Program-made: the position numbers and the translations under genes | The notes under the pieces: model-generated | What the model was told of the DNA's origin: nothing | The model's database searches: none | What the model saw: only the letters and a program-made list of their open reading frames with translations | Part shown: in pieces, positions 19,569 to 64,000 of the stretch | Layout of the letters: each line of letters opens with the position of its first letter | Position numbering within the stretch: position 1 is the first letter of the stretch | Assembly: GCF_032118995.1 (NCBI RefSeq) | Contig: NC_092648.1 | Coordinates: 883,001-947,000, forward strand | Reading direction: 5' to 3' | DNA length: 64,000 bases | DNA from: Asterias amurensis | Taxonomy: Eukaryota > Echinodermata > Asteroidea > Forcipulatida > Asteriidae

Positions 19569-22500
19569 ATGGCTTCGGATAACGTTGTTATAAAGCAGGA
19601 AGTGGCAGATGCCATGAATCTGGAAGAGCGGTAAGTATTCAGTTCAGGATTCATCATCACTTTTCATTTTCCACCCTTCATCAACTTTCAATCATCATAA
19701 ATAGGCCAATTAATTAGTTAAAGTAATGGGGTAAATGGACAAGCTCCAACATTAACACCAACACTTGAACAGGATTTGTCACCGGTTATCGCTACCACGT
19801 ATTATTATTGTGGAGAGTAAATTTACTTTTTTCTTCAAAATCCAAATAAAATAATTAAACAAAAGCCTACAGGCTACATTACATGTATGAACTAATTTTG
19901 TTGGCATGATGATCGATGATGTTGGTAGTTTAGTTATTATTCATTGTTAATAAAAGGTGTGCAAGCATGATGAGGCGATATTCTTTGCTCACTGTGACAC
20001 CAGTACAGTAGGCAGCAGAAGCCAAGACATTGGCCCAATATTGGCAATGATTGGCGCATCTCCTCTGCCGGGAGTATTTTGGGTGCTGAAATTGAGAAAT
20101 TACTAACCAGTGTTAGTGTTAAAAAAGTATTGCAGAAGAAAATCCTTTTCAAATTGCCTGAAAAATTTCCTAAATGGATCTCAAAATGCGTCACTGGTGT
20201 CGTGCGGGTGCGAATAGAGTTCAATAAGGTGTTTTATGTCACAGCTACAGCAGCTAAGCAGCAAGCGAGCTTCATTAGGCGGGTACTACACATGCACACT
20301 TTGACTAGAATCTGACAAAGTTTGCATGCACCCTCTCACTCTCAGGTGCTACACGCTTATTAATTTTATACAAAAGAGCTAATGCGTAAATAGACCTATA
20401 TAAAGTCAATTCTCTCTCTTGTTCATTTTTCTCGACAGGATTCTCGATATGTGTAAAGAAGAAGCTAAGGGTGTACCAGATGCTTTCATTAAGGACCAGT
20501 TGCCTCATATTGACGCTCAACAGAGAGTTAAAGCCATCAACAGATTACTCTCACTGGTAAGTAAGCATCGTCAGTCTCTGCTTAATAACCCCTTGTCACA
20601 AGCCCATAACAGTCCCCTCACTGAGGTGATAGAAGAGCTATCCATGGCTGAGAGTCCTGCATAGTGTGACATGTATGCAGGTTACAATTGTGTGACAACA
20701 TTGTCGGCCAATAGACCGATCCACCAAGCTATGCCCCATTGCGTAATGACCAGTCACAACGCAACGATGGTCCGACAAATGAGGTCAGAAATGTGTGCGC
20801 GTATCTTGGTGCACGCGGCAGAGGTGTGCAGAAAGACTTTGGAGAGCCCCACGTGTTCTTGCTCACACGTGCTTCATGGGCAGAGCCTAATGGATCGGTC
20901 TATTGCAAGCGGTCTATTGAAACAGTCTGAGTGTTGGTAGCCAAGTAAACTTGATGCCAAGTCGTTAAATTGCAGTGGCGTTAGCGTAATGGCTCTCACA
21001 TGACTTAACTCTCCAAAGACTACTGCTCCTGTGACACTTCTGCTCTCATGATGACAGCAGTAGTTTGGAGCCAGCAGTCTTGTGCAATAGCAGTAAAGTC
21101 AAGTGAGAGCCGAAAGTCAAACACAGTTAACGCCTTGTTCACAAGTCTAAAAATTACTTTCTTGAAGAGGAAACAATTACAGTGAATGGTTTTTGACTTT
21201 ATCTTCAAATAAAAGAAGTCTGCAGTTTTTTCATCCAATTCAAAAACTCGCTCTAAAAGATTAAAGACTCATGGATTTATTTAAAGTCAGAACAATAAAA
21301 ACTAAAATTATTCAGGCATGCCAATGAGTTATTTTCCCTGAAACTTGATGAAAAATGGATTTCTATGTCTTAATGCATTGAACTCATTATTTGGTATGAG
21401 TTAGGAATCATTTTAACATGTAGTGATTGCTTTGTGTCTTACCAGGGGCAGATAGATCTTGTGAAGCATGGATCTGAATTGTTGTATCGTCTGAAAGATC
21501 CATCCTCTATTAGGTGAGTAAATAAACATGGGATGGAGGTTGTAACATATTTTGTTTGCACTAACACAATGTGTGTACTTGCTGGGTAGATTATGTTCTT
21601 TTTAGAATTTGTCTTGCTATAATCTACATAGCAAGACAAGTTCTCACAGAAGAGAAGTTCTCACAGGTGTATGACTACTGACTGGCATCCTTTGAACAAC
21701 AATATTAACAATAGGGCGACCGTCAACATTAGGGCTCTAATACTTAGCCCAGGCGGTAGAGTGCTGGCACGTTAATTAGGCGGTCTCAGGTTCAAGTCCT
21801 GTTCTGTCTAGTCAATTTTTTCTTGGTCAACACAAAACTAACATTATGTTGTTAAGACAACTATTGATTAAAAGTGCAGTTACTTTTGAAGGCATCTTAT
21901 CTCATAACATAATTGTCTTGTATCTTTGTAGTAAAGTGAAAGGAGTTGACAACCAAGAGAGACTGATATATCAGATCATTGAGGATGCAGGAAATAAAGG
22001 CATCTGGATCAGAGATATTCGTCTACGAAGCAATCTCCTTCTTACACAACTCAATAAGATCTTGAAGACGTTGGAAAGTCGCAGTCTTATTAAGGCTGTT
22101 AAATCTGTTGGGGTAAGTTTGTATTTTTCAATTCATTTTATTTCATTTGATCTGGTTGTTAATCAAGTTATTAAGTCAAGGACTCTCAGAAAAGTGAACT
22201 TATCACTAAACTAGCCAGGAACCCCATGGAGAGAAGACAAGGAAGGAAGTGTCAGTTTAAGATGATTGAGGAAAACCTTAGAGAATTATTCTGGGGAAAA
22301 CTTACGCAGTCAGGTAGGGACTGAAAACTCAAGTGTCCTCAGCGTGTTTCAAACCAGGGTCCAAGAGATGGAAGGCAAGGCAAGATACCACTAGGCCAAC
22401 CTGACCGCCCAATTTTATTAGATGAATTTAATTATCATTTATTGGGTTTTTCAGTCAATAAAAGGTAGAAATAATCAGAAATGCTTGTATGCCGCTGCAT

Positions 22501-37500: not shown

Positions 37501-40375
37501 AACTTGTCTTGCTTTATGTTCTACTGCCGTGGATTTTTCAGAATTCATAAGACGTAGATTTTCAGAATTCTGTAAATTTTTCAGTTCTGAAAGGAACTGT
37601 CATGCTTATTCGGCTAGGACACTTCTTCGCTAGTAGATGCTCATTGTTTAATCTAGTTTCTTTGGTCATTATTATTCAGGTTGAATTAGCAGTTGAAGAC
37701 ATAGAGACCATCTTGAACACCCTGATCTACGATGGTAAGGTGGAGATGACAGTCTCATTAAGAACAGGTGCAACGTCTTCCGGAACACCAGGTCAGGTCA
37801 AACTTTATCGAGCCATCCAGCCATTGACCCAGTCTGCTGGACTCATGAAAGTCCCTTGTGGAGTCTGCCCAGTAAGTTCGCACAAACTCTTTCAAATTCT
37901 CTCTAGAATTGTGCATTAATTGTGTGTAATGATGGCTAGGAAGATGAGATGGGATATTTGATAAAACATTCTTTCTGTATATTGAATGCTTCTGAACCCA
38001 ATTGACCTGCAATAGAAATCAAGAATGTATTTTCTTTGAATCCTAGCCGAGTAGGTAGCCTATTGATTTTTGGAAAGCTTTAAGTTTTCTATACACCTCT
38101 TGTCACACCTTGATGTAAGGGTGGCCTCTGATTCTGCCAAAAGCTCCCTTGAAATAAACCCAACTTTCCATATTCTGATGGACAAAATTAAAATGAAAAC
38201 CTGATAATTGAATGTTGAATGTAATTCAAAACATCTCCCTAATTGTTGACACATAATATCCCAGATCGCAAAATGCAAATCTTGGCAACTCATGTCAATT
38301 GCACATTCTGTGACTGGTGTCCTGCCCATTTCCGCTTGGCACTTTAGCAGGAGATTGTTAAGCAATATATGGTCTACTTTATGCATCTCTATGGGCAATG
38401 GACCATGGTCTATGTGAACTCCTTGTACATTGTAGTTCTAGTGGTTCATATTTGTTACATGTAGGTTGAGTGAAGTCAAACCAGCTTGATATCACTTTTA
38501 CTGCTCTAAATAGTCTGTACATTTAGCTTATTTTGTTTTCTCCTTAAATATTCAACCCTTTTCAAGTTGAAATTAAATCCTATTCTAGCCATGTTATCGG
38601 TTATTTAAAGAATGCGTAGGAGTATTTATAACCCAATAGTACTGACAATTCTAGCTTCATAGTAGAGTGTGAATGTGATAAATGTACATAGTGACAATGT
38701 TTGAGCAGGTTGTTTTGACTGGCTATGTCCACATGCAACGCAGCTGTTTTATTACAATCTTTATATCGATGCATTATGAATTGATGTTTTTAACTGGACA
38801 GAGATATAATAAAGGATAATATATTGAAGTAGGAATTAATCAACTCACTGGAATGAACACCTTGGGGGTGTATTACTACAGTAGTGGCACACGCAGTGCC
38901 CCTCTCCCAACCCTTGGGGCATATGGGTACTCTTTCAATTGTGTGTTTTTTATTTGTGTCTCATAGGGGCAAGTGAGGGGCAAGGGTTTTGCTCCTGCCC
39001 CGCCCCCACACCACTGAGAAACTGATTGTCAATGTTGGGTTTTTGAATTATTTATTTCTAACCATATTGTATATGAGGGCATACAATTCATTTAGGGGAG
39101 GGACATTGAAAATAATCGGAGGGGCACATCCCCCTCTTTGAGAGCCATACAAAATTGATTCAGAAAAGGTTGTTTAATCCAAAAACAAAATGCACTTTTC
39201 AACATGTTTACAGCAAGTTGCTTCTCTCAGACTATTTTGGTCTTATCAAGAAGGGGTTAGAGATGCTATAACATAAGCCCTGTGTTTGTTGAGTTGTCTG
39301 AGGGTAAAAGTCAAACAGTCATCACTGCCGAGTCTCAGTCGTGACAGTGCATGCATATGAAACACGTACCTGTACAACTTGAACCTGTCCATGGTACACT
39401 GTATAGTGCATGCTGTGTTTGTTTGTGGTTTCGACAGTAAATAAGGTTGCTATGGGTACCTCACCAGTAATAGGTTTAACTTTGTGGTATGATCTTGATG
39501 AAATATAATCAGTTGAACTTGAAGAGATTGGCAGTGTTTTTGGAGTGGAATTTGGTGTTTTGTCAACAAAGCTTTGTTAAGTCAACAATGAGCCTTAAAA
39601 AGTAACAATGCCAGTTTTATCTTCTTCTTTTGCAAGTTGCCAAAGGTCACTGCACGTTTTTTGTTGGTAATTTGTTTCCACAAGTGACTAACACACCGCA
39701 ATACTGGTGTACTGATAAGCAAACTTTGTTGAAGTTGTTCTTGTTGATTATCCTGAATGAACACTTTTTTTTTGCCCAGTAACTTCAACATTAATTTGTT
39801 CATCATGATAAAGTTTCAAAGTTACTTTTTGAAACATTGCTTGTCCTGCTTTCTTGGCAGAGGCAATGGAAGCTATTTCATTTGTTAATAATTAGTTTTA
39901 TACAATTTTGTAAAAATAAATTGTAAAATTTAGTTTAAGTCTGGTTAAATTTATGTATGAGAATGAGAGTTTTTCTTTCTGACTTGTTTTTGTAAATATC
40001 TGATATTGTCAAAACATGACAGCTCGTTTGAAATAATGGCTGTGGCTGCTGAATGTGTCGTAGCACCTTGTTAACCCTTATAAGGTGCTACATAATTGGG
40101 TCCCAAAATTCATAACTTTAATAACCTGTCTTTTTGTAAAAGTATTCTAAATGCCTTGAGTACCTTCCTAGATACAAGCTCTATATGAGACTTTGATATT
40201 ATTTTTTTCTAGTGGCCTGTTTCCTTTGTATACAGATTACACCATGTTATTTTGTAAGACCTGGTGTTAATCCCATGTATTATTCCCTTCCCCCTAGGTG
40301 TTCAGTCAGTGTTATGAAGGAGGAACTATATCGCCATCTACGTGTGTCTATATGAAAGAATGGATGGATTACTGA
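19569..40375 (+). CDS. POLR3F: RNA polymerase III subunit RPC6 (POLR3F), complete
   Basis: Exons: 19569-19630, 20439-20556, 21446-21513, 21932-22112, 22629-22772, 23490-23597, 37680-37871, 40298-40375 (TGA 40373-40375). All phases join to 316 aa, the same length as the human protein. The N-terminal half carries the tandem winged-helix segments; highly conserved stretches include YQIIEDAGNKGIW and DRSVTGGAWYSDQDFESEFV. The C-terminus holds C287, C290, C296 and C307, the four cysteines that bind a 4Fe-4S cluster in human RPC6. Known role: part of the Pol III-specific RPC3-RPC6-RPC7 heterotrimer needed for promoter opening and contact with TFIIIB. The seventh intron (23598-37679) is 14 kb and packed with repeats; the Fe-S cysteines are split between the last two exons (C287/C290 and C296/C307). 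Confidence 0.97.
20709..20905. mobile_element. 197-bp MITE with 15-bp perfect TIRs (copy 1)
   Basis: The ends are CAATAGACCGATCCA and TGGATCGGTCTATTG, perfect inverse complements. The interior has palindromic cacgtgttcttgctcacacgtg. It lies in the POLR3F intron between exons 20439-20556 and 21446-21513. A related copy is at 22.92 kb. Confidence 0.9.
21735..21825 (+). mobile_element. tRNA-derived SINE fragment
   Basis: It contains cccaggcggtagagtgctgg (D-arm/A-box-like) and ggttcaagtcctg (B-box-like) about 40 bp later. No cloverleaf acceptor stem is visible. It sits in a POLR3F intron. Confidence 0.5.
22205..22411 (-). mobile_element. tRNA-derived SINE, inverted
   Basis: The reverse strand reads gggcggtcaggttggcctag then tggtatcttgccttgccttcc, the same head as the SINE at 33.43 kb, followed by a B-box-like tggtttgaaac. 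The tail shares the ttctccatgggg/ctttccttgtcttctc end with that copy. Confidence 0.7.
22918..23123. mobile_element. MITE related to the 20.71-kb element (copy 2)
   Basis: It begins atagaccgatc and ends gatcggtgtattgc, with the same interior (gctccgccccattgcgta, cacgtgttcttgctcacacg, gggcggagcctaa). It lies in the POLR3F intron between exons 22629-22772 and 23490-23597. It has diverged from copy 1 by substitutions and an inserted segment. Confidence 0.85.
23265..23405 (+). mobile_element. Repeat of the 'caggcctg/catggaggcaa' family
   Basis: It shares tgaaacttcat, ggcaaggccattttcatttt, gaaacttttgaaggggcacc and a terminal ggcatcagaggc phrase with segments near 8.4, 8.7, 29.4, 30.2, 35.6 and 53.9 kb. 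Non-coding. Confidence 0.5.
26080..26258 (+). mobile_element. Possible LINE 3' tail
   Basis: It ends gtggaaataaatgttctgtt, very like gaacggaaataaatgtcttc at 63.79 kb, each followed by a simple AAT-rich tail. This looks like the shared 3' end of a non-LTR retroelement. No reverse transcriptase fragment is visible. Confidence 0.4.
26429..26817. mobile_element. Inverted-repeat element, GGCAGTGGACACTATTGG family, full length
   Basis: It starts ttaaagacacttgacactat and ends accaatagtgtccactgcct then ttaa. A segment of about 47 bp near the left end (gacactattggtaattgtca onward) is tandemly duplicated. The interior carries the tctgaggtctcgaaatcaaa phrase typical of the family. Confidence 0.85.
28581..28714. 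mobile_element. 134-bp MITE with GAAGTATGAACC termini
   Basis: The ends are aagcccggttcatacttc and gaagtatgaaccaggctt, inverse complements with one mismatch. It has no coding capacity. Confidence 0.85.
29419..29580. mobile_element. 162-bp 'CAGGCCTG' element
   Basis: It is bounded at both ends by the 8-bp palindrome caggcctg. The interior is cctccatgccccctggtcaa followed by two related tgccttggtgccctt phrases. Similar DNA, often inverted, recurs at 8.4, 8.7, 23.3, 30.2, 35.6 and 53.9 kb. Confidence 0.7.
30209..30380 (-). mobile_element. 'CAGGCCTG' element, inverted copy
   Basis: The reverse complement of the 29.42-kb unit: tttcaagggcaccaaggcaa, gaccagggggcatggaggca and gaagtatcaggcctg are all present. 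Confidence 0.7.
31315..31533. mobile_element. 219-bp MITE with GGACCCTTCCCATGAAATATG termini
   Basis: The left end ggacccttcccatgaaatat is mirrored on the right by atatttcatgggaagggtc. The centre holds a strong palindrome (gacgcgcaatcgcgtctgcg). Confidence 0.9.
31794..32849. mobile_element. 1.06-kb element with GGTGTTCGG ends and internal direct repeats
   Basis: The terminal inverted sequences are ggtgttcgg (31794) and ccgaacacc (to 32849). Inside, two diverged direct repeats of about 270 bp (31881-32135 and 32551-32834) share gcttgtatgaacctgaaact-like, aatgatgacgtcatcgatga-like and catatcttgagaac phrases. A third, partial unit sits between them. A long T run is at 31827-31850. No transposase is visible. 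Confidence 0.75.
33431..33660 (+). mobile_element. tRNA-derived SINE, best-preserved copy
   Basis: The head ggtcgggttggcgtagtggt (A box), followed by a B box ggttcaaatcccacc about 45 bp later, then a tRNA-unrelated body (gtatgtggataaggttttca, gtgggttttccctgca). Related heads occur at 1.5, 2.28 and 22.2 kb. Confidence 0.8.
34395..34482 (-). mobile_element. tRNA-Leu-like SINE relic
   Basis: The reverse strand reads gggtggtcatggcttagcgg, then an anticodon-arm-like segment and gtgtgggttcgagtcctg (B box). It is a diverged relative of the copy at 56.85 kb. Confidence 0.5.
35575..35785 (-). mobile_element. 'CAGGCCTG' family element
   Basis: It contains cctctgtgccccctggtcat in the first part and, inverted, tttcaagggcaccaaggcaa, gggcatggaggcaat and gaagtatcaggcctg in the second. 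The two halves make it partly palindromic. Confidence 0.6.
35813..35976. mobile_element. 164-bp MITE with CCGTTGATTTCACAA termini
   Basis: Left ccgttgatttcacaa and right ttgtgaaatcgacgg are inverse complements with one mismatch. Inner arms also pair (cttcctaacttaagac with cctaagttaggac). Confidence 0.8.
37440..37520 (+). mobile_element. Fragment of the 'ggtttgcggtaacaccat' repeat
   Basis: The phrase 'tttggtttgcggtaacacca' followed by gctgggtagatcgtgttctt and aacttgtcttgct recurs in part at 21.57, 48.25 and 49.89 kb. It lies at the 3' end of the long POLR3F intron. Confidence 0.5.
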
Positions 40376-43488: not shown

Positions 43489-44474
43489 GTAAGAATTATT
43501 TCATTTTCATATATATTTTTTCCGGAATGATAAAATGCAGCAGATAAGGCCATGGTTAATCTCAATGTGGGTGAGAATTTACGGAGAATATTGAACCTTG
43601 CACTTGAGTGACGTTACATTCCATCCTATGGCAAGCGGCGTACAGAATAACACATTGATTGATGTTCATATTTCATGAGTTCGGCGAATCTTACACCTCA
43701 AAGGAATACATCTTAATCTTGTTAATCACTAAGAAAGAAACATGATTACATCTTCCTGTTGATGAAATATTATTCAAAGTAATGTAAGACGATAACATTT
43801 TCAGCTGTCATCGGTGCAGAACATTGTGTAGGAGAAGGAAATACTAGATTTAGTAGACGTGGAACTATTGGATTATGGCTTTCTATGCACATAGCAGACT
43901 ACATGAGCGTTGAATAGAGGAAGCGTTGGCCAGCTTTCATTCTCTTTCTTATTATTGATCTCGAAGAATTCCATCTTAAACAGCTGAAAGGTCTCGGCAT
44001 AATGTGATGTTGTCCCGTATAGCGTGCTATGGTTGTTTCAGTCGGCCAGTTTCATCTTTACATCGCCAAGTGCATAGTATTATAATCAATGGAGTGTGAG
44101 TTGTTGTTTGTCACTTCTCTGTTCGCATTCCTCTTCACAGAATAACGGTGTTGTGGTTAAGTTCTTGAAAAGACGATGTCACCTTGGCGTTTTTGAAAAG
44201 ACCGCCATTTGCAATCCTAGAGCAAAACATAATTTTATTACCTCGTTAAATGTTTGTCGGGTCATAAAAAGTGAGAGACGGTGTTGGAACATAGAATTAG
44301 GCCTATACAGTTTTACAGTTTTTAAATTGCAAAACAAATTGTTAATGTCCTGACGTTTCGACCCTAGCAGAGTCTTTCTCGAATGAACAGTTTAATGGCC
44401 TGACGTTTATGTGTTTAAATTGCTGGCTTTTGGGCGAGTATTTTTCGTAACGTATTGATTGGTTTTACATCCAA

Positions 44475-47564: not shown

Positions 47565-50500
47565 ATGGCAAGCCTTTTCCAGCAGAAGTATGATGCCGAG
47601 AAGGACTACCCAAACTTTACAGGACACAAATCTCTGTTGTCTAAACATCTAACAAAGGATTTGTACACTAAGCTTCGTGATGTACAAACTGAGAGTGGAT
47701 TCACCATTGATAGAGCCATTCAAAATGGAGTCGACAATGCTGGTGAGTTGTACTAAATAATAAAAGGACAAAAGTGACATTTTTATCACATAAAAAAAAA
47801 GGTAACTTTGGATAACTTTGGATAACTTTGCCACCACTTTTTCACTCTAAACAAGAAGAAGGAACAAAACTGACATTGAAATCAAATAAAAACCAGTTGT
47901 AATTTCTACTGTAATTTGGCCATTAGCCACGAGTGTAAAAACAGTCAACTAAACTATTGGATAACTTCCTGTATGGCGCCACCACTTTTTTACTCATTTT
48001 TATAAAAAAGAGATATCTCATTGAGGTAAATTAGATTTATTTCATATCGAATGAAAAAGTGGTGGCGCCATACGGAAACTTTTCCAAACTATTTATCTAT
48101 CTATCTATATTTCATCTATCTATATTTCATCTATATATCTATCTTTATTTCATCTATCTATCTATCTATCTAGCATTGGGATAACATCATCTTATTAGTT
48201 GTCTGCTGTGTATATAAAATTATAGTGTACGGTATCTTGGATATTTGGTTTGCGGTAACACCATGTGTTCATCTATTTGCCAGGTACAGTTGTACTTTTG
48301 CTATGTGTACTAATACAACCGCGAGATAAATTTATCGGAATTGATTTAAGCTGGTATTTTGTGTTCTTTCTTTCCTTTTTCCTTTTACCCAGCACCTTTT
48401 CTGGTAGTTACACAAGAAACCTATATTTATATTGTTCATTTTTTAGAAACAAAAAATAAACAACACAAAGTGTTATATTTTAAAGTGTGTTCATATGAAG
48501 TTGTTTTGTCCGACCTACAGATTTCCACTTGGGAGTTCTAGCTGGTGATGAGCAAACATACGAAGTGTACAAGGAGCTTTTTGACCCCATCATCCAAGAC
48601 TACCACAATGGATTCAAACCCTCAGGTATGGAGACACATTTTAGCTACTTAAGGTATATTTGTAATAAACTGTTTCTTTTTTTGTACATTAGTTTCTCTT
48701 TGCTGCTTTGTGTTGTAATCAAGCATCTGAAAGCACACAACTTCGTGTGACAAGGGTGTTTTTTTCTTTCATAATTATCTCACAACTTCGACGACCGATT
48801 GAGCTAAAATTTTCACAGATTTGTTATTTTATGCATATGTTGAGATACACCAAGTGAGATGACTAGTCTTTGACAGTTACCAATAGTGTCCACTGTCTTT
48901 AAGCAAACATGTCAGTGGCGTATCTATACATTTTCGTATGGGGGAGGTGAGGGAGGCATTCTGAAGGCTTCCATTTTGCTCTCTCCCTTTCACCTCACCC
49001 CCTCACACCCTCCCCAACCCAGTTTGTTCATGCTATCTATTGAAAGATGGATGATAAAGAAAGCTTGTTCATATATGTATACATGTCAGATGTAAAGCAT
49101 ATCCTGCTGCCATTTAATTGCTATTTTTGTGTGTCTTTTAATGTACAATTTTGTGTACAGATTTGCTATGAAGTGCAACTTTTGAACAAATTATATGTGT
49201 TAATGTTTTTTTACTAATACAATGTTTGTACTGAGGGCCTCCATGGAAAACAGTGCTGGGCACTGAAAGGAGTTTACCCTCATTAAATATGATGTAAAAT
49301 TTTGATGATGAGACTCTTTGAATCTCAATGTGTGAAACAAGATTCAGTCACAAGTTAAATTGTTTTGATTTGGGTTGAATTGCAGATAACCACGTCAAGG
49401 ATTTGGACCCAGCAAAGCTTGAGGGAGGCCAGCTGGATGAGAAATACGTCATCAGTTCTCGCATCAGGACTGGACGTAATGTCCGAGGCTACGCACTTTC
49501 ACCCTTTGTTTGCCGCGCTGAGAGACGGCAGGTTGAAAACATTGCTGAACAAGGTGAGTCCATTAATTGTATTTTCTTTTTTGGGGGGTTAAGTGCCTTG
49601 CTCGAGGGCGCTAGTGTCATGATCGGGATTCCAACCCACACTCTGCTAATGACAATGATAGGGTTCGGGTTTTTGAACCTAGACCGCTCACCCACTACAA
49701 GCCACAAGTTAAGTTCTCATCAAGACTTGAATGTTTGGAAATCAAACATTGACTAGGTTATGTTTATTTTCCCATGGTCTTGAGGAGGACACAGGAAATA
49801 AGGAGTCATTTACAACTGAAAATGTTTAAAAAAAGTGAGCTCTAAGGCAAGTAGGATTTGAAACTCTGATTGGTGGAAATACGAAATAGTAAAGGTTTGC
49901 GGTAACACCATATAATGATAATCTCTAAATGAGTTGGGGTGGTGGTTCTTAAAAGAACCGTTGGTTTCAACTCGACGTTTCGATCAGTATGCTCTGATTG
50001 CTTCTGGAGAAAGCTGGACTCTGATGCTGCATGCTGCAGCTCTAAGGCGCTTACAAGCTATTAGTACATCACAACCAATCTAAAATATTCAACCCATTCC
50101 TTTTTATTTACAGCTCTTGCTAAGCTTGGTGGAGAGCTATCAGGCAAATACTATTCCCTGCAGACACTGGGTGAAGCTGACAAACAACAACTGATTGATG
50201 ATCACTTCTTGTTTGAGAGACCAATCTCCCGCCATTTCACAAGCGGTGGTATGGCACGTGACTTCCCTGATGGCCGTGGCATCTGGTAAGAACTCATTTA
50301 TGATAATCCACTTTATCCCTGAACCCACTTCCTTCAACTTGAGCCAATTTTAAGATACAATTTGGAACAAGTTTTCGGTAAAAAGAGTTCTTAAAATAGA
50401 ACAAAATTAATTAAACAGGCAGTAACTCAAGGTTTGTTAAGGTTTTTCCCAGAGTTATTCAGGGTTCAACTTCTAGTTACCTGGAGTTTAACCCGCTTGT

Positions 50501-53500
50501 TAAATTCTGTAGACTGCAAGACTAATAAACAAATGTTTGCTTTAGAGTTAGAGAGGTTGGCTGCTGCCAGCTTGGTGCTTATGTTCCCTTTTTGTGAGTT
50601 ACAAAGTTCAGAATGTTAACTTCTATACTTGGTTTGTATCTTTAGGCATACCAATGACAAGCGTTTCTTGGTGTGGGTGAATGAGGAGGATCATCTCCGC
50701 ATCATCTCCATGAGACAAGGAGGAGACATGAAGGCTGTCTTTGAGCTCTTCTGTGAGGGTCTGAGCAAGGTAAGAACTAGGTCAGATCTTTCAGTCTGCA
50801 ATTCTGGAGGGCCCCAATAGATCTATATACTTGTGGTTTATGTTTATGTCTCATGAAGGCAACTTTGTGAATGCCTTTCTTCTAGGTGATTAATTGGAAC
50901 TGGTTGCCTGAAAATTGCCTCATGTGACATGGACGTTGGCAATGTTTTTGGTTCTCATAATGTATGATCAATGTATATATATTTTTTCTTTTTTCATTTG
51001 CTTTGGCCATGAGTAATGTGTTGTATAAATAGTTATATTGTGTTATAGATGTTGGACCTATTTCGCATTTTAAAGTGTTCACTAAAATGATTTACTAAAT
51101 ATGCTGTATTTGTATCACTCAGCTTCACCCCAAAAAATCAAAGGAAGTTATGAAACTGACCAGTTGTCATTTATAATGTTTAAGATCTTTAAAGACTATT
51201 TTGAATTTTGTTACAGTTTGAGGGTCAAATGGGCAGCCTTGCTGAGCCCAGAGAGTTCATGAGGAATGACCATCTTGGTTTCATTCTGACCTGTCCATCC
51301 AACTTGGGTACCGGTGTCCGATGCAGCGTCCACGCTCGCTTCCCACTTCTTGCCAGCGATAAACGCTACGACCTGGACAAGATCTGTCTTGCTCTTAGAT
51401 TGCAGAAGCGTGGAACAAGTAAGTTGATTCAAATAACTGTCAATTTAATTAAGGTTGGGAATGTAGTGCATTCTGCTCTACCAGCCAGGCTCCTAGTAGA
51501 TGATACCCATGTCTACATCCTTACAGACTATGAAGGGGATAACCCCTTTTTCAGCCCCAGGAGTAGGTGGAAGTTGATAAAAAAATTATAACTACTTTCT
51601 CTTGTGAGCAAAGAAGATAAACTAAAGTTCATTGACTTGAACTTGATTGATTTCGCTTGTGCATTTCTATCTTTATTGATGTTTTTCTTCCTTGTTTCAT
51701 TCATTGTTCTAACTTTGCTGTTACTGTGTACATTTTGATTGACATCAAACTGACTGTATTTATTTTGTGCAATTACTTCATTTCCTTATTCAATATATCT
51801 TGTATTTGAATTCTACATTGTTGCTCTGTTTGACCTATGACTAATGTTTCTTCTTTTAAAGTTGTTTTCTTGATGACTTGTTTCTGATGTATATTTTGTA
51901 TTGTCCTAAATGTTATTGGTTGTTTTTATGCAAAAGAGCTTCTTAGTTGAATCAGGCCTAGTTAATATGTTTAAGTAAGTCAATGTTTCTTGTATTTTGA
52001 TTCTACATTATTATTATGCTTGTTTTTCTGTATGACTTATGTTTAATGTTTCTTCTTTTAAAGTTGTTTTCTTGATGACTTGTTATAGTGATTTTATATT
52101 GGGTATTGTTTAAAATGTTATTGGTTGTTTTATGCAAAATGGCTTCTTAGTTGAAACAGGCTTAGCTGATATGTTAAAGTAAATAAATAAATAAAAACCC
52201 CTAAGGATTTCAATTAATATCTCGTCTTAACATCTCCTAGAGATGATAATTCTACTCCTGTTAAATTTCCATATCTTCTTTGTAACCCAACTCCTAATTC
52301 ATGAATTTGCTTTGTCTCCAGGCGGTGAATTCACCGAAGCCGTTGGCGGAGTTTACGATATCTCCAACTTGGATCGTCTTGGCACCACTGAGGTTCAACA
52401 AGTCCAGTGTGTGATCACCGGTATCAACCTCCTCGTCCAGATGGAGAAATGCCTGGAGAAGGGGGAGCCAATTGATGAACTCCTACCCATGTAAGTAATG
52501 TAAGTATAGCTCTTTGATCATCTACCTGCATGGATGGATCAATGGCGTGACGTCGTGTTCTTGGTGTACGTTGTAGAGGAAGGAAGCTGGTGGTGGTGTC
52601 GCACATCTTAGTTTGCATGGTATTAACTACACCCTGGTCTAGTTGGTTGTTATGTTGGTACTTATGTGGCTTTTATAGTGTGTAGTTTTTATTCTTGTAT
52701 AGTTTAGCACTATTAGTAGGGTACAGTAGCAAAATAATGAACTGGGTCCAATATGAGGATCTGCATACCTGGCCTGTGCTTACACCCATAGCACTATGTG
52801 CTTTATATTACAGGCAGAAATCCATGGTAAGCAATGAAATAGGAACTTTTGAGACACTGTCGGCAGCAGACATATCAGTCCTTTTGTGCGGCTCTGAGCG
52901 TGCTCGCATCAGCTCACTATTGCGCATGTGGGACTGAGCCTGTGCATTATTGTGAAGAAGGACCGTCTAAAAGTCTTCCGTTGGACCCTGGCCTGACAAA
53001 AACAAATCTTTGCAGTCAAAATTATTTTGATCTAAAAAGTTTAAAATCACACACCATACACTTTAAATTCAAGTATGGTATCCGTTTCAACACATGCCAA
53101 GAAACGTTATGTTCATTTATTTAGACTGATAGTCATTCAGTACATTTCAGTGGCAACTGGTTTCTTATAGGACCATTCTACAACACTCCCAAGGCACATC
53201 GCTACAGTCAAATATTAAACACCCCTTCATCCCAACCCGTGTTAGATTTGTTTAACGATTTTCTAATACAAATTACTAGTGGGGTTTAGTTTGGTGTTCT
53301 TATATACTCCCTGCATGTGTATAAATCCCTTTTGAATATTGTGATTCAAGTTGAATAACAAATGTATCTTTGATTTGCTGTTTGGTTTCCACTGATCCAA
53401 GAGTATTCAACCCTAACAATGAGGGAGTTTTCCCCCTCATTTGATCCTTCTTTTTTTTTGGGATACTAAACTGTTGATCAACTCGATAACATTTAGCCTT

Positions 53501-54773
53501 GGTTCACAGAGTCAGAGATTAAATGTAAAAGTCACATTAGTATCTCAGTGATTTTGACTGACTATGACTTACTTCATTCGTGAGGACCAACAGAACATTT
53601 TAATGAAAGATTTACACAGCTTATCTTGTTAATCTAAAAAGAAACTTAATCTAAAAAGAAACTGTTTGGGGTTTTATCTTTTACTATTCCATAAGTTTTC
53701 AAATCTAGTATAAATAGTCATAAGGAATAGTGTAGGCATGCTAGATAAAATAGATACATATTAGATATTAGTGAACATGCTCAATATGAATAATGCAAAT
53801 AAATATTTCAAATTCTGACAAATTTTGTTTGTGATTAAAAAGAGATAAATGACTCTTTTTATTTAGTGTTGTCGAACCATTCAGCTTGGTATTTCAGGCC
53901 TTTGACAAAACAAAGCCATTTTCATTTTGCAAAGTGCACTTTTGTAGGGGACTTAGACTTAGACTTAGGGGCTCCTTTGTAGGGGCATCAAGGCCAAAAC
54001 CAGGGCAACAGAGACCATCCTCTGTTGCCTCTGTGTAATTCCATATCTGGGCAGTGAAGATACTCAGGTTCCACACATAGGGCACTTCCTCTGGAACATC
54101 TTAAATATGATGGGAAACACGAGGCCAAGACCAGGGCCCAATTTCATAGCGCTGCTTAACGGTAAGCAAATTTGCGTGCTTACTGTAGCAGAAAACTTTG
54201 CTTAAGCCTTAGCGTATTTCACTGGTTAGCAGAAAAATTGGGCGGCCATATTGCGTGTTGCATTGTGCCGTCATTTATTTTTGTGCGGTAAGCACCGGAA
54301 GGTTAGCATGCCTTTTCGTGTGCTTACGGTTAGCAGCGCTATGAAATAGAAATTGCAAAGTAAGCACAAAATCGACCGCTAAGCAGCGCTATGAAATTGG
54401 GCCCTGGTCTGGTCAGTGGAGATACTCAAGTTCCACACATAGGGCATTCCTTTGGTACATCTTAAATATGATGGAAAACACCAAGGCCAAAACCAGGGCA
54501 ACAGAGGCCATAGTGGGTGACCATTTTATCCCGGGCTGGGTGCTCATTTTACTCTTTGATAATTACTATTCACTCTTCACAATGCACTGTATACTGTCCT
54601 TGTTGTTTCAGTTTTTCTCTCTTGTCTTTGTTGATTCTCATAAATTATAGACTAATCTATTTTATTCCTTCTGGTTTTCTAGGGGCATAACAGCTGATGA
54701 AAACACCAACACCAACAACAGCAGCCGAGCAAAGAGCGGTCAAAAAAAGACAGGAGTCTGCGTAGCACTGTGA
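47565..54773 (+). CDS. Arginine kinase, creatine-kinase-derived (echinoderm) type, with C-terminal CaaX tail
   Basis: Coding exons: 47565-47742 (exon begins 47540), 48521-48625, 49386-49553, 50114-50285, 50646-50769, 51217-51418, 52322-52490, 54683-54773 (TGA 54771-54773). All phases join to 402 aa. It transfers phosphate between ATP and a guanidino substrate to buffer cellular ATP. Visible motifs: short specificity loop [13 protein letters not shown] (58-70), arginine clamp [17 protein letters not shown] (218-226), reactive C275 in TCPSNLGT, and the flexible loop [13 protein letters not shown] with E319, where creatine kinases have Val. The scaffold ([28 protein letters not shown]) is creatine-kinase-like, as in echinoderm arginine kinases. 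Usual length is about 355-380; here a 29-residue tail (374-402, basic, ending KKTGVCVAL) comes from the last exon. Arginine specificity is inferred from the loops. Confidence 0.96.
48093..48172 (+). repeat. (ATCT)n microsatellite
   Basis: Runs of tatctatctatc are interrupted by atttcatctat. It lies in the first coding intron of arginine kinase. Confidence 0.9.
48716..48902 (+). mobile_element. Half copy of the GGCAGTGGACACTATTGG family
   Basis: It runs from caagcatctgaaagcacac through acttcgacgaccgattgagc to the terminus caatagtgtccactgtcttt. It begins about 90 bp after an arginine kinase exon. Confidence 0.75.
49592..49700 (-). mobile_element. tRNA-Leu-like SINE relic
   Basis: The reverse strand carries gtgggttggaatcccgatca (B box) preceded by an arm related to the 34.4 and 56.85 kb copies. 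Intronic in arginine kinase. Confidence 0.45.
49888..50015 (-). mobile_element. Retroelement-end fragment, ATCAG-AGCATA-CTGAT hairpin with CGAAACG
   Basis: The reverse strand reads CCAGAAGCA, hairpin ATCAGAGCATACTGAT, then CGAAACGTCGAG; 'ggtttgcggtaacaccat' is at its other side. It matches the copy at 16.7 kb. Intronic in arginine kinase. Confidence 0.55.
51790..52190 (+). repeat. Tandem duplication, unit about 190 bp, with AAAT-rich end
   Basis: 'aatgtttcttcttttaaagt' with tgttttcttgatgacttgtt and atgttattggttgttttt occurs twice, each followed by cttcttagttgaa(a/t)caggc. It ends in taaataaataaataaa. It could be two copies of a retroelement tail. It lies in the intron before the exon at 52322. 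Confidence 0.8.
53895..54040 (-). mobile_element. 'CAGGCCTG' family fragment
   Basis: aggcctttgacaaaac, gccattttcattttgcaaag, aggggcatcaaggccaaaac and tgttgcctctgtg place it in the family seen at 23.3 and 29.4 kb. It lies in the last arginine kinase intron. Confidence 0.5.
54129..54409. mobile_element. 281-bp MITE with 30-bp perfect TIRs
   Basis: The ends GACCAGGGCCCAATTTCATA... and ...TATGAAATTGGGCCCTGGTC are perfect inverse complements over 30 bp (through GCGCTGCTTA). The interior contains repeated taagca/gttagca words. Perfect TIRs suggest a recent insertion. It sits in the last arginine kinase intron, 273 bp before the final exon. Confidence 0.95.
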
Positions 54774-55476
54774 TCCAAATTTAAATACACTATCCTTAAT
54801 GACACAGACTGGTAGAGGGCATGAGACTCATAAACGCTAAGCAGCCAGGCTGCTGCTTAGCGCAAATGGCAAGTTTATATATTTGATAATATCTAATGCT
54901 TAGTAACTTTATCCACACACTTTGTTTTGGATGAGACGTGCAGCATGCCCTTTCCCAGTCTGTGATGTCCATTCTGCTTCCACTGTTAGATTATTATGAC
55001 CTGACTTAAAACTAGGTTTGACCCGAGTTTGACCTTAGTTTTCGTTCAAGAAAACAACTACAAACTATTTTTAAGACAATTCAAGCTCAGATTTGAACTA
55101 TGTCAGCTCTTAAGTCACGTTATAATACTGACCCACCTCATTGGATTTTTATACTTTTTGACAATACAGCAAAGACAAGAACATATCCCCAACTTTCTTT
55201 AAGAAGTTTCGTTGTATATAATATTGCTATCAGTTTTTATTTTTTATTACAGAGTGACCCTTTATACGAACTCGTTTGTGTGAATATTAATACTTTAATA
55301 TATACTTTTCTCATTTGTTGCTTTCCGATAAGGGTCAAACCGAAAACAAAATTTGTTGATTTTGTTCCAATTTAAAAATAACAATTTAAAATGATAAAAG
55401 CTGAAATTGTAACCCAGATTATGGAATCTGAACTGTAAGCAATATGGTTTTCCTCTCTATCTTAAAGTGTGTCTAA

Positions 55477-55482
55477 AATAAA
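55477..55482 (+). terminator. Candidate arginine kinase polyadenylation signal (AATAAA)
   Basis: AATAAA lies 704 bp after the stop codon, in AT-rich 3' UTR DNA (54774 to about 55500). Position-based inference. Confidence 0.55.
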
Positions 55483-56459
55483 GCAAATTTGAGTTCCAGT
55501 GCTATGCAAAAAAAAAGATCTTCAACTAGATTAGAATATTCATGAATATTTATGAGTTAATGATCACAAACTAAAAAACTGACAAAGACTAAGGCTGTTG
55601 CTTTGTTTGGCTGTAATTGATATGCTTAATTCATGGGATGATGATAATTTGGGGTTATTTCAGTTAGCTCTAGAAGTGTGTAAAAATTGTGTGTTGTCCT
55701 TGATATAAATTATATATGTCAGTATTTGCCGTGTGTTCCATCATTTTTCCATCTGGGGGTATGAAGTTTTGTCATTAAACATGGCAAGTAAGTGCAGACT
55801 CTCTATTCGTTATGTAGACTTAAAACCACACAATGTCCTTGAGTTGTTTTAATTAATTTGTCGTTGAGAAGGAATGTTTTTTGAATGGATAGAAACCTGG
55901 AGAATTTGCCATTATTCTCAAACAGGATGAAATAATTTCTGATACAAATCTTTTCAAACACACAAAAAGCTGCCATTTGGTAACCAAAAGAAGATGACAT
56001 CCTTCATGCCATAAACAAGTACATTCCTGTAACTATGTGTCCCAAACTGAAAGATCATTGTACAAATAGGATAACCCATGGCTCAACATAAACCATTATG
56101 CTTTGGTTTCTGAAAACTTTAATTAATTTATCCCGATATATGCCGACTAGTTGTACTGATAACTTAAAAATCATGGTTCACATGATCTTTAAGTAAAATA
56201 TACACGGATTCGTCTGTAATGCATCTATCTTACGGTTGGATACATACATGACGTACATTTGTTAACTAGAATTCCTCTTGCAATGTAAGCATGTGTGATC
56301 ATAATAAAGTAAGCAACGTTAAACAAAATCTGTTTGGTCCTTGGCTAATAGTACTCTTGTGTGACTTCTCACTTGGACTTGATTGTAAGGCTGTCTTGGG
56401 CGTGTACCATCTTAATAATACTACACGTACTAGGTTCTTATATAGCGCTTTATCACACC

Positions 56460-56611
56460 CCAGGGGCCGATGTCAAAGATCTAAGATTGATCGTAACTGC
56501 AAATCAATCGTAGTTGCTTAGTAAAACGTGATGTCACAATACAAATCACTATGGTGAAACTGAAAATTTGTCTTGCGATGAATTTTATTGCTTTGTGAAA
56601 TCGGCCCCAGG
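56460..56611. mobile_element. MITE with CCCCAGGGGCCGAT ends
   Basis: Left accccaggggccgatgtc and right gaaatcggccccagggg pair in inverse orientation. The inner arms (gatcgtaactgcaaatcaat and related) also pair locally. Confidence 0.7.
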
Positions 56612-60336: not shown

Positions 60337-63300
60337 CTACTCAATCTCAACCAAGAGATCATCTCCTTGCACTGCTAAACCTTTCCTTGCATGAATATTC
60401 TTGACTGTCCCAGCAATAGGTGCCCTTACAACCATCTCCATCTTCATAGCACTCAGGACGACAATAGGGGCATCTTTCTCTACTTGGTCTCCTACTTGTA
60501 CCCTAATATCAATCACTTCCCCAGGCATAGGAGCTCCAATGGATCCCTTCACACCCTGCTGGGCTTTGGGATGGATGTTAATCTCCTAAAACAAAAATCA
60601 TAGATTAAATTAAAAAAGTAAGAATTACGTCCTGGTAACAAAAACCCTGCTTGGCTACCTTTAAATTTGTTTTCATATCCTGTTTAGAATAATTAAGCAC
60701 CCTTAACAACATAAACAAATATCAAAGACCAGTATCTGAACTTCATGTGATCAAATATTTCAAATGGCATTTTGGCTGGTGACATATTCTGGTAAAAACA
60801 ATTTTATTGTGCTTAGCTTCTTTTTGTGCTTAAGTAGCTCTATGAAATTGGCCCAAGACGAGTTGGGTCTGTACTTATATGACATCTTACCTTGGTAGCT
60901 ATTGTGTCCTTGATCAGCAATGATCGGAGTTGACCGTTGAGTTCAAAGAAGACTTCTCTCTCTCCAGTCTTTTCATCCATATCTCCCATAGCAAGCATCT
61001 TCACATGGAGTCTCTTTCCCTTCTCAATTTGAATCTGACAAAAACACACACAGAAACAAGTTGCCATAAATCATTTCTAAGCTCGACTGTAAATCTACCA
61101 GTAGTTTAGTTGACAGCATGATTAGAAACTTGTTGGATAAGTGTGAATCATAACACTATGCTGATTTCAAGACTTTGTTCCAGCAAGACCTAGTTTCATG
61201 GTTTTGCTGAAAGAAGAGTGCTCACTGAAGGGCTTACAAAAGCAGGGAATTCCCTGCTTACGTCAAGCGTAATTCACAGGTTAGTAAGTTCTTCCCTTAC
61301 ACAGCTAGCGCAAAAAATTCCACGCTTGCCCCGGAAGTGAAGATTGGTGATTGCAAGCACAGAATTCAACGATAAGCAGAGCCTTGCCATCAGTAGATTT
61401 AATTTTTGATCAAAAACTGGAGTTGGAATGTACATTCAAAACTTACATCAAATTCTTCTGCAATGTTAGGTCCAACAAAGAACAATCTCGTTGATATTGT
61501 CTCTACAGGACCATACAGTTTCCTGAAGTTGCGGAAGTCATCATAGACCTTTGGGTACAGGGCTGATGTAACAATGTTCTGCTCAGTCACATCTGAGCCA
61601 TGTTTCTCAACCAACTCCTCCTTGAGTTTGTCAAAGTCCATTGGAGGAAGCATCTCTCCTGGACGCTTATCAATCCTTGGCCCATCTTTAATGATCTGTT
61701 TTAAGAAATAAGAGATTGTTTGATTAACCCTTGATCATAGCAAAGTGACTCATGCTTTCCATCTCATGCCAATCATGGTTGAGATTCATAAAATTCAAGC
61801 ACAGTCTAACTTCAAAAAATTCTGATGCACTGCTTTGCTCTATACAACTCATATCTAGCTCATAGAAATATGATTGTATTAAAACAGGAGTTGATTTACC
61901 ACTGCTGGTTTTTTTCCAAACCACAATTCAAAACAAACATTTTATATACATGGTGTTATTGCATACCATACTAGACTGTATCTCCACCTTGCAAAATTTC
62001 AAATCCTAGCCATGGTGTAACTGCAAACTTTAATAGATTTAATTGTTGTGGGGCAACTAATAACTGTGTACCTTTGATCTGAGTGGTTCAGGAAAGCCCC
62101 CATAAGGTTGTCCTAAGTATCCCTGCATGAATTCTACCACTGAGGTCGGGAAAGACAATTCTTCTGCTTTCTCCAGAAGCGTCGCACCGTCCATCTTATT
62201 CTGCACCATGAACTGAGCCAAGTCACCCACTACTTTAGACGAGGGAGTCACCTTCAAAAAACGAAAGCAAATCTTATTAAATTGAATGATCAAAAAGACA
62301 GATGACTGAAAATACAATACAATGTAGATTGAATCAAGAGTAGACATTGTTATTTCAAGATTTCTCAAAGCAAGCTCAATCATCAACAAAAACATTGACC
62401 AATAACTAAAACAAAAATGTTAAAAACTTAACCTGTTTTCCATACGACTAAAGCTGTGAAAGACTAAAACAGCTTGATATTCAATCATTTATTAATAGTG
62501 TGTCCTTTAAACAAAACATTCAGTGGTGACCAACGGTTGTATTACAGAAAAGTACACAAAAAATACAAAATGTAAAAAGATGATACAAAATTATACAGTA
62601 AATCAATAGTGTAGAGTATCTATGACCAAACATATATCTTTATCTATATTTCCACATTTTCAAAAATTAAATAGCAGAAAATATATCAGAGTAAAGATCA
62701 GTAATATCAGAAACTAAATAAAACAAATTATATCAGAGGTACAAATTAGTGATTTGACAAAATAAATAATAGAAAATATATCAAATGTATAGATCAGTGT
62801 CATTAGAAATTAAATAACACAACAAATATCAAAGTAAAGATCAGTGATATCAGAAACTACATAACACAAATTATACCAGAGGTATAGATAAGTAATATAA
62901 GAAAACAAATAACAGAAAATGTCAGAGGTATAAAACAGTGATATCACAAGCTAAAAAACAGAATCATTATTAACACTATATCATACCAGATGTATAAAAC
63001 AGATATATCAAAAACTAAATAAGATAAAATATATCAGATGTATAGATCAATAACATCAAAAATTAAATAACAGAAAATATATCTGAGGTATAAAACAGTT
63101 ATACACTAAAAATGGAAAATATATCAAGTATACATATAGTTTAGTGATATCATAAACTAAATAACAGAAAATATACCAGATAGTATTTTGTTCATGGAAA
63201 CTTACCTTGATAAGGTCTCCCAGCAACTGATTGGCTTCTACATAAGCTTTCTTGACTTCCTTAAACTGAGACCCGAGTCCAAGAGTGAAAGCCTGGAATT

Positions 63301-64000
63301 GTAAGTTTGTGTATTGACCACCAGGGATTTCATTCTTATAGATGTCTGCATTACCACTCTTCATTGTTACTGCACACTCAAATGGACCATAGAACTGACG
63401 TACAACCTCCCAATAAGCACTATAGTTAAAAACCTCCTCCAATGGGATTCCTGTTAGAGGGACAATCAAGTATTCAAATAGTTTATAAAATATATGCAAA
63501 ACATACAAAGTTAAATTTTTCTCAAAGTGCTTTATACTATCGTAAGCTGCTGTTACAAATTTGTGTTTATTGCTATTGTTTTAAAGAGTGATTATCAAAC
63601 ATATACCTCCCCTTTAAGTGAATAGAAAACCTATCTTAGAGGTATGCAAAAGCACCATATATTATTGTTCATGTTAGTCCATTGTGTTTTGGTTTGTTTG
63701 CGTGGACATGCCTACCACAAGCTTTGGCTTTTCTGGTTATGCCCCCCCCCCTTGTTCTTTGTTATTCTTATTTTGATTATCTGTTGGAACGGAAATAAAT
63801 GTCTTCAAATGAAATAAAATGAAATCCTTTGGGACATAATTTCACTTGGAACAAAAAACCGGATCTTGTTTCCGAGTCACCTGTATCCAATTCAGTGCCT
63901 TCCAGCGCTGCAACAACAGCTCCCATACTCGGCTGTGATGTCATCCCAGACATCGTATCCACTGCAACATCCACAGCATCAGCACCAGCATGAGCAGCAG
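60337..64000 (-). CDS. PC: Pyruvate carboxylase, C-terminal third (5' part beyond window)
   Basis: Exons in coding order: 63881-64000 (cut by the window edge), 63206-63450, 62072-62251, 61447-61695, 60891-61034, 60337-60585 (TAG 60337-60339). Phases join to about 394 aa, aligning with the last third of the roughly 1,180-residue enzyme. First come the end of the carboxyltransferase domain ([34 protein letters not shown]) and the tetramerisation/allosteric region ([34 protein letters not shown]). The biotin carboxyl carrier domain follows, with AMKME; the biotinylated Lys codon is at 60442-60444, 34 residues before the C-terminus, as in human PC. Known role: mitochondrial, biotin- and ATP-dependent conversion of pyruvate to oxaloacetate. 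It converges on arginine kinase. The biotin carboxylase domain and targeting peptide are outside the window. Confidence 0.97.
61200..61390. mobile_element. Degraded copy of the 54.13-kb MITE family
   Basis: gcttacaaaagcagggaatt, ccctgcttacgtcaagcgta and gattgcaagcacagaattca share the words of the 54.13-kb element. It lies in a pyruvate carboxylase intron. A related end (tatgaaattggccca) is near 60.84 kb. Confidence 0.4.
62575..63190 (-). repeat. Degenerate minisatellite, unit about 50 bp, roughly 12 copies
   Basis: Words such as atatatcagaggtataga, tcagtgatatcagaaac and taaataacagaaaata recur about every 50 bp, filling most of the pyruvate carboxylase intron between exons 62072-62251 and 63206-63450. 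Confidence 0.9.
63660..63835 (+). mobile_element. Possible LINE 3' tail
   Basis: tggacatgcctaccacaagc to gaacggaaataaatgtcttc plus an aatgaaataaaatgaaat tail resembles the 26.1-kb segment. It lies in a pyruvate carboxylase intron and includes a 10-C run near 63742. Confidence 0.4.

Follow-up and report, generated by a model that had tools for sequence, protein, structure and literature searches.

Does a starfish arginine kinase gene end in an exon that would equip the enzyme for membrane attachment through a prenyl lipid? The question is raised by a locus in a 64,000-nt stretch of the Asterias amurensis genome (GCF_032118995.1, NC_092648.1, positions 883,001 to 947,000; hereafter the window), for which an earlier reading of the DNA had predicted a CaaX-like box at the C-terminus of the enzyme. 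Phosphagen kinases are mostly soluble, and their placement near ATP users is thought to matter. We know of no C-terminally prenylated phosphagen kinase.

An arginine kinase gene with a terminal tail exon

The plus strand of the window carries a gene of eight coding exons, extending over 47565-54773, that encodes a 402-residue arginine kinase (Table 1). GT-AG dinucleotides were found at every exon join, and a single frame stays open as far as the TGA. Both Pfam domains of the family scored above cut-off (PF02807 at residues 21-85 and PF00217 at 143-359), and the best match among 49 distinct solved sequences was the arginine kinase 3ju5/3ju6 (E 1.2e-174), with query residues 1-372 aligned. The core fold of the enzyme is known from this structure, which we take to be from a sea cucumber. 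In the specificity loop the alignment to 3ju5 is gapless, whereas four extra residues are present in the two creatine kinases (CKs) with alignments compared. On the basis of the best solved match and the short loop, we class the product as an arginine kinase of the CK-derived (CK-like) type, with substrate use predicted. The N-terminus reads MASLF, without Gly2.

The original prediction placed an Asn/Ser/Lys-rich stretch, residues 374-402 ending KKTGVCVAL, past the normal enzyme end and joined it to the core by a splice from 52490 to 54683. Translation of the spliced frame agrees with this tail, and the frame together with the GT-AG joins confirms the coordinates and the splice at the level of sequence. 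The acceptor of exon 8 has its junction between cttctggttttctag and GGGCAT. Both frames, with and without the box, exist in the gene, and AATAAA motifs are found at 53798 and at 55477/56303. Searching the genome with exon 8 and its flanks returned only the exon itself, that is, a single copy. An origin of the tail by copying from another gene was considered and abandoned, as no sign of it was seen and the tail's end was matched only by itself; one flagellar-CK domain match extended to residue 384, but across a stop. A location of exon 8 within a repeat was likewise rejected, since repeats of at least 25 nt in 52491-56500 do not overlap the exon.

Table 1. Features of the arginine kinase gene (positions in the window)
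Feature	Position	Strand	Remarks
Coding exons 1-7	47565-47742, 48521-48625, 49386-49553, 50114-50285, 50646-50769, 51217-51418, 52322-52490	+	Residues 1-372 plus two bases of codon 373
Donor CAT/gtaagt fused with in-frame ATG-TAA	52488-52496	+	Unspliced reading ends ...DELLPM at 373 aa; TAA 52492-52494
Intron 7	52491-54682	+	2192 nt; contains AATAAA at 53798, then a T/G-rich stretch; possible short-transcript end (predicted use)
Exon 8	54683-54773	+	91 nt; TGA 54771-54773; 29-residue basic, Asn/Ser/Lys-rich tail ending KKTGVCVAL
CaaX-like box Cys399-Val-Ala-Leu402	54759-54770	+	From translation; Cys399 codon 54759-54761
AATAAA	55477-55482	+	Could serve as poly(A) signal for the tailed transcript (predicted use); second at 56303

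The exon 7 donor coincides with the natural end of the enzyme

The donor of exon 7 reads ACCCAT/gtaagt and is in phase 2. Given that a phase-2 intron beginning GTAA always yields an in-frame TAA, the stop at the donor is by itself uninformative; what is notable is its position. Residue 369 of 3ju5 (370 aa) aligned to query residue 372, with one 3ju5 residue beyond the last aligned proline, and the unspliced form would thus stop where the known enzyme stops. 3ju5 has no tail; in the window gene, 29 further residues can follow M373. Because the tail begins at the natural enzyme end, a free 373-residue form and a tailed 402-residue form are both possible from one gene. This standard-length enzyme, which can be made if intron 7 is kept, had been overlooked in the original prediction.

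The chance of finding GT right after an ATG-TAA end is ~1 in 16. The donor score at 52490, 4.7, is the lowest of seven (the other six range from 4.8 to 8.1, with consensus weights set by hand), and RNA structure at the donor was nothing special (z = 0.87). A likely history is that an ancestral stop codon was turned into part of the donor and a downstream stretch into the tail exon.

Intron 7 also contains, at 53986-54511, a foldback whose 36-nt arms are 97% complementary and lie 211 nt apart (54128-54163 / 54375-54410). It sits amid direct repeats of 33-39 nt and resembles a small mobile element.

Exon 8 has features of a coding exon

Scored with the hand-set consensus weights, the acceptor at 54683 reached 7.4, the top value of the 216 AGs in 52551-56500; the six other acceptors of the gene scored -0.2 to 7.5. 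An equally strong best acceptor arose in 806 of 4000 dinucleotide shuffles of 52491-56500, so acceptor strength is unremarkable by itself and, not being significant alone, was dropped as proof of exon 8. A Cys four residues from the end was reached from 11 of the 216 AGs, four of which correspond to the exon 8 frame itself. Judged by criteria chosen after the tail was seen, peptides read from the best acceptor closed with CxxX in 109 of the shuffles and with Cxx[LIMF] in 36; 5 of the 4000 combined Cxx[LIMF] with at least three K/R in the 11 residues preceding Cys.

Codon use was also scored. The tail reached 10.4 bits toward coding. Open 30-codon windows of noncoding sequence, which overlap one another, averaged -12.5 bits, and 0/2348 of them scored as high as the tail; when synonymous choice only was considered, seven of the 2348 matched it. 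Exon 8 ranked first among 125 candidate frames when the codon table was built from the other two kinase genes or from the three together, and fourth when it was built from arginine kinase exons 1-7 only. Under the three training sets the tail scored 10.8, 5.9 and 10.9 bits, compared with -10.2, -8.7 and -10.0 for the 10 codons preceding the acceptor. The 30 codons past the TGA, with stops omitted, still gave 3.2 to 4.7 bits, and the codon signal is therefore not sharp. Collectively, these sequence features suggest that exon 8 is very probably translated.

The tail resembles a prenylation substrate with an unusual a2 residue

In the predicted protein, Cys399 is fourth from the end of 402 residues and is followed by an aliphatic residue at a1 (Val400) and Leu402 at X; the a2 position is occupied by Ala401 rather than by one of the favoured Ile, Leu or Val. 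The 11 residues preceding Cys399 are small, flexible and hydrophilic, and four of the 11 are K/R, with Val at -1 departing from the pattern (judged by eye against the account in PMC1175975). That paper describes a small, flexible, hydrophilic, lysine-bearing linker of ~11 residues in prenylation substrates, a preference of GGTase-I for Leu or Met at X, and the strongest aliphatic constraint at a2, with a +2 correlation in the learning sets of 0.85 (FT) and 0.87 (GGT1) (PMC1175975). The last point justifies the caution, already voiced in the original prediction, that Ala is less favoured at a2. The presence of a terminal exon past the enzyme end, with a linker that is basic, hydrophilic and flexible in front of Cys-Val-Ala-Leu, supports a tail architecture like that of CaaX proteins.

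Lipid attachment to such a tail is less well supported than had been proposed. Leu at X had been taken to indicate the GGTase-I class; Leu402 does fit the preference, but CVAL falls outside the motifs reported as prenylated by Arabidopsis GGTase-I (PMC3017772). There, CVAL is among the motifs made, and of the a2 series only CVIL and CVFL are stated to be prenylated (PMC3017772). Since no other member of the set containing CVAL is so described and its a2 is Ala, we do not class CVAL as a GGTase-I substrate. For plant FTase, the same paper reports that charged a2 residues are strongly excluded, without naming Ala, and that CVIL is used at 0.06 of CVIQ (PMC3017772); farnesylation of CVAL is thus possible, as the exclusion concerns charged residues. 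In a yeast screen reading farnesylation, Leu at X was underrepresented (PMC4358939).

Data from other systems are more permissive. CVAA, CAAQ and CASA were observed to be prenylated in a yeast reporter despite a negative PrePS prediction (PMC9231725). Human GGTase-I expressed in yeast fully modified CIIM, CVIM and CVLL and modified versions with Ser, Ala, Leu or Gln at a1 by about half; Val at a1 favours this enzyme, and some non-canonical motifs were also modified (PMC11152559). The specificity of animal GGTase-I may be wider than that of the plant enzyme. CxxX ends are themselves common, occurring in 1207 human Swiss-Prot proteins under the broadest definition (PMC11152559), and human CaaX candidates number >600 versus >200 shown in mammalian cells (PMC4358939).

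For the processing machinery, prenyltransferase beta matches were detected at three places in the genome; exons at two of these places have their closest solved counterparts in GGTase-I beta (E 1.4e-27) and in FTase beta (E 3.1e-19). An ICMT match is also present. The Pfam model for Rce1 had no match in the genome; this model detects 11 of 14 controls, all prokaryotes, and we read the missing match as a limit of the exon-by-exon search. Given exon 8, we put lipidation of Cys399 at somewhat under even odds.

A model with anchored and soluble forms, and its alternatives

Our main reading, to which we assign a probability of roughly 0.35, is that a CK-like arginine kinase gene with a dedicated tail exon gives a spliced form that would be prenylated and membrane-held and an unspliced form that would be soluble. 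Removal of intron 7 would produce the 402-residue form, whose flexible basic tail would present Cys399 to a CaaX prenyltransferase, either an animal GGTase-I tolerating Ala at a2 or farnesyltransferase. The lipid, together with Lys390, Lys394, Lys395 and Arg388, would hold the tailed enzyme at anionic membranes, where it could regenerate ATP locally, beside membrane ATPases. If intron 7 were kept, or if transcription ended inside it, the ordinary soluble 373-residue enzyme would result. A stronger version, which we consider unlikely, is that nine bases act as a soluble/anchored switch, the ancestral stop now being part of the donor, with the kept intron giving a soluble enzyme and the removed intron a prenylated, membrane-tethered one.

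Several other explanations have to be set against this reading. At nearly even odds in our estimate, exon 8 could be translated and Cys399 never prenylated, the basic tail acting instead by electrostatic binding to membranes or RNA, by S-palmitoylation, or by offering V-A-L to class II PDZ domains, whose ligands are C-terminal hydrophobic-x-hydrophobic sequences. The acceptor and codon use that make exon 8 look coding fit such a tail, and this account draws on the position of CVAL outside the motifs reported as modified by plant GGTase-I (PMC3017772), on the atypical Ala at a2 (PMC1175975) and on Leu at X being poor for FTase (PMC3017772, PMC4358939). Against it, Cys399 is at precisely the fourth position from the C-terminus and follows a linker like those of prenylated proteins (PMC1175975), and some motifs with Ala at a2 were prenylated in yeast (PMC9231725).

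The two-form part of the main reading, and only that part, is affected by an account that otherwise overlaps with it: every transcript may use exon 8, so that no soluble form is made and the TAA at the donor is an automatic product of a phase-2 GTAA intron. The strong acceptor and the fact that any such intron creates an in-frame TAA are consistent with this, while the coincidence of the stop with the natural enzyme end and the candidate poly(A) signal within intron 7 point the other way, neither being decisive; we rate its chance at just short of one half. Conversely, exon 8 might be unused or a product of rare mis-splicing, with the functional protein being the 373-residue form ending DELLPM and the GTAAGT coincidental. 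Such a protein would end as 3ju5 does, the GT after ATG-TAA is a coincidence of only ~1 in 16, shuffles often yield an equally strong acceptor (806/4000), the AATAAA at 53798 could serve a short transcript, and with arginine kinase codons alone the exon ranks only fourth of 125. We nevertheless regard disuse of exon 8 as improbable in view of the exon's codon use under the larger training sets and the fact that the single best acceptor leads to the CVAL tail.

If the main reading is correct, this would be, to our knowledge, the first known C-terminally prenylated phosphagen kinase, and the gene would provide a natural free/anchored pair from one splice with which the location of ATP buffering could be tested against its amount. 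It would also add a C-terminal anchoring route to a family whose known lipid-type cases are N-terminal. Should Cys399 not be lipidated, exon 8 would still be of note, as it lengthens in an unusual way an enzyme whose size is conserved.

Comparison with known terminal-exon choices and targeted phosphagen kinases

The closest functioning counterpart is human OAS1, in which splicing at the end of the gene determines whether an otherwise soluble enzyme acquires a CaaX box with Leu as its last residue; one choice gives the CaaX-ended, geranylgeranylated p46 and the other the soluble p42 (PMC8357416). Terminal-exon choice can therefore give an enzyme a working CaaX. OAS1 is an unrelated enzyme, and its p46 ends CTIL, a motif that human GGTase-I expressed in yeast shifted completely (PMC11152559), whereas the window enzyme ends CVAL with lipidation predicted. 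The second form also arises differently, by a shifted acceptor in OAS1 and, in the window gene, by what would be intron retention.

Mitochondrial CK has a basic C-terminal extension that binds anionic membranes, and the window enzyme resembles it in that its phosphagen kinase core is extended at the C-terminus; the mitochondrial enzyme differs in its location and in having no CaaX box. Sea urchin flagellar CK carries an N-terminal acylation-type signal. Like this CK, the flagellar arginine kinase AK3 of T. brucei would be similar to the window enzyme in being a phosphagen kinase with a targeting end that places ATP buffering at a membrane; the N-terminus of AK3 was aligned with those of acylated calflagins, and lipid-type targeting was proposed by that resemblance (PMC4517888). 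Both flagellar kinases have their signals at the N-terminus, and these belong to the myristoyl/palmitoyl type (for AK3, by the likeness to calflagins), unlike the C-terminal, prenyl-like signal of the window enzyme, whose N-terminus is MASLF. Drosophila ArgK1 is relocated to mitochondria via alternative N-terminal exons (PMC13215054).

These comparisons narrow the original view that a lipid anchor is undescribed in arginine kinases: the T. brucei AK3 N-terminus is a proposed parallel (PMC4517888). Neither a prenylated arginine or creatine kinase nor a starfish arginine kinase was among the matches listed in the open-licence literature, and priority cannot be claimed. A 2012 paper in Gene reportedly covers CK and arginine kinase isoforms from the starfish Patiria pectinifera; a tail of this kind may already be described there.

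Other phosphagen kinases and neighbouring features

A genome search for phosphagen kinases, which scores best candidates only and could miss an additional gene, returned relatives whose ends lack a CaaX box. The mitochondrial-type CK (L009/L010, G000:C14, ~4265.8-4274.6 kb) ends SLIPKA (by eye), and its C-terminus is without a long basic extension; vertebrate mitochondrial CK has one. A triple CK ending GLLPKGI is encoded at L011 (G000:C2:15880587-15883940, minus strand) by one intronless open frame of 1113 codons with three CK domains, presumably resembling sea urchin flagellar CK. The open frame at L012 (G000:C2:14661735-14662781), 481 codons long and free of introns, encodes a divergent phosphagen kinase that has a long N-terminal stretch and ends LLAELTM; this protein is 37% identical to the window arginine kinase over 22-364. 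A search for relatives in viral contigs with exon 6 as query gave 15 pattern matches, of which 0 were confirmed.

Elsewhere in the window, two GTAAG-type sites noted by eye upstream of the coding exons, near 43489 and 46693, might act as splice donors for alternative exons in the 5´ untranslated region. Farther upstream of the kinase gene, a gene for an RNA polymerase III subunit (PF05158, Rpc34) has plus-strand exons at 21780-22211 and 37551-37916. On the minus strand, exons with a conserved carboxylase domain of the pyruvate carboxylase type (PF02436) lie at 62060-63580 and converge on the kinase gene.
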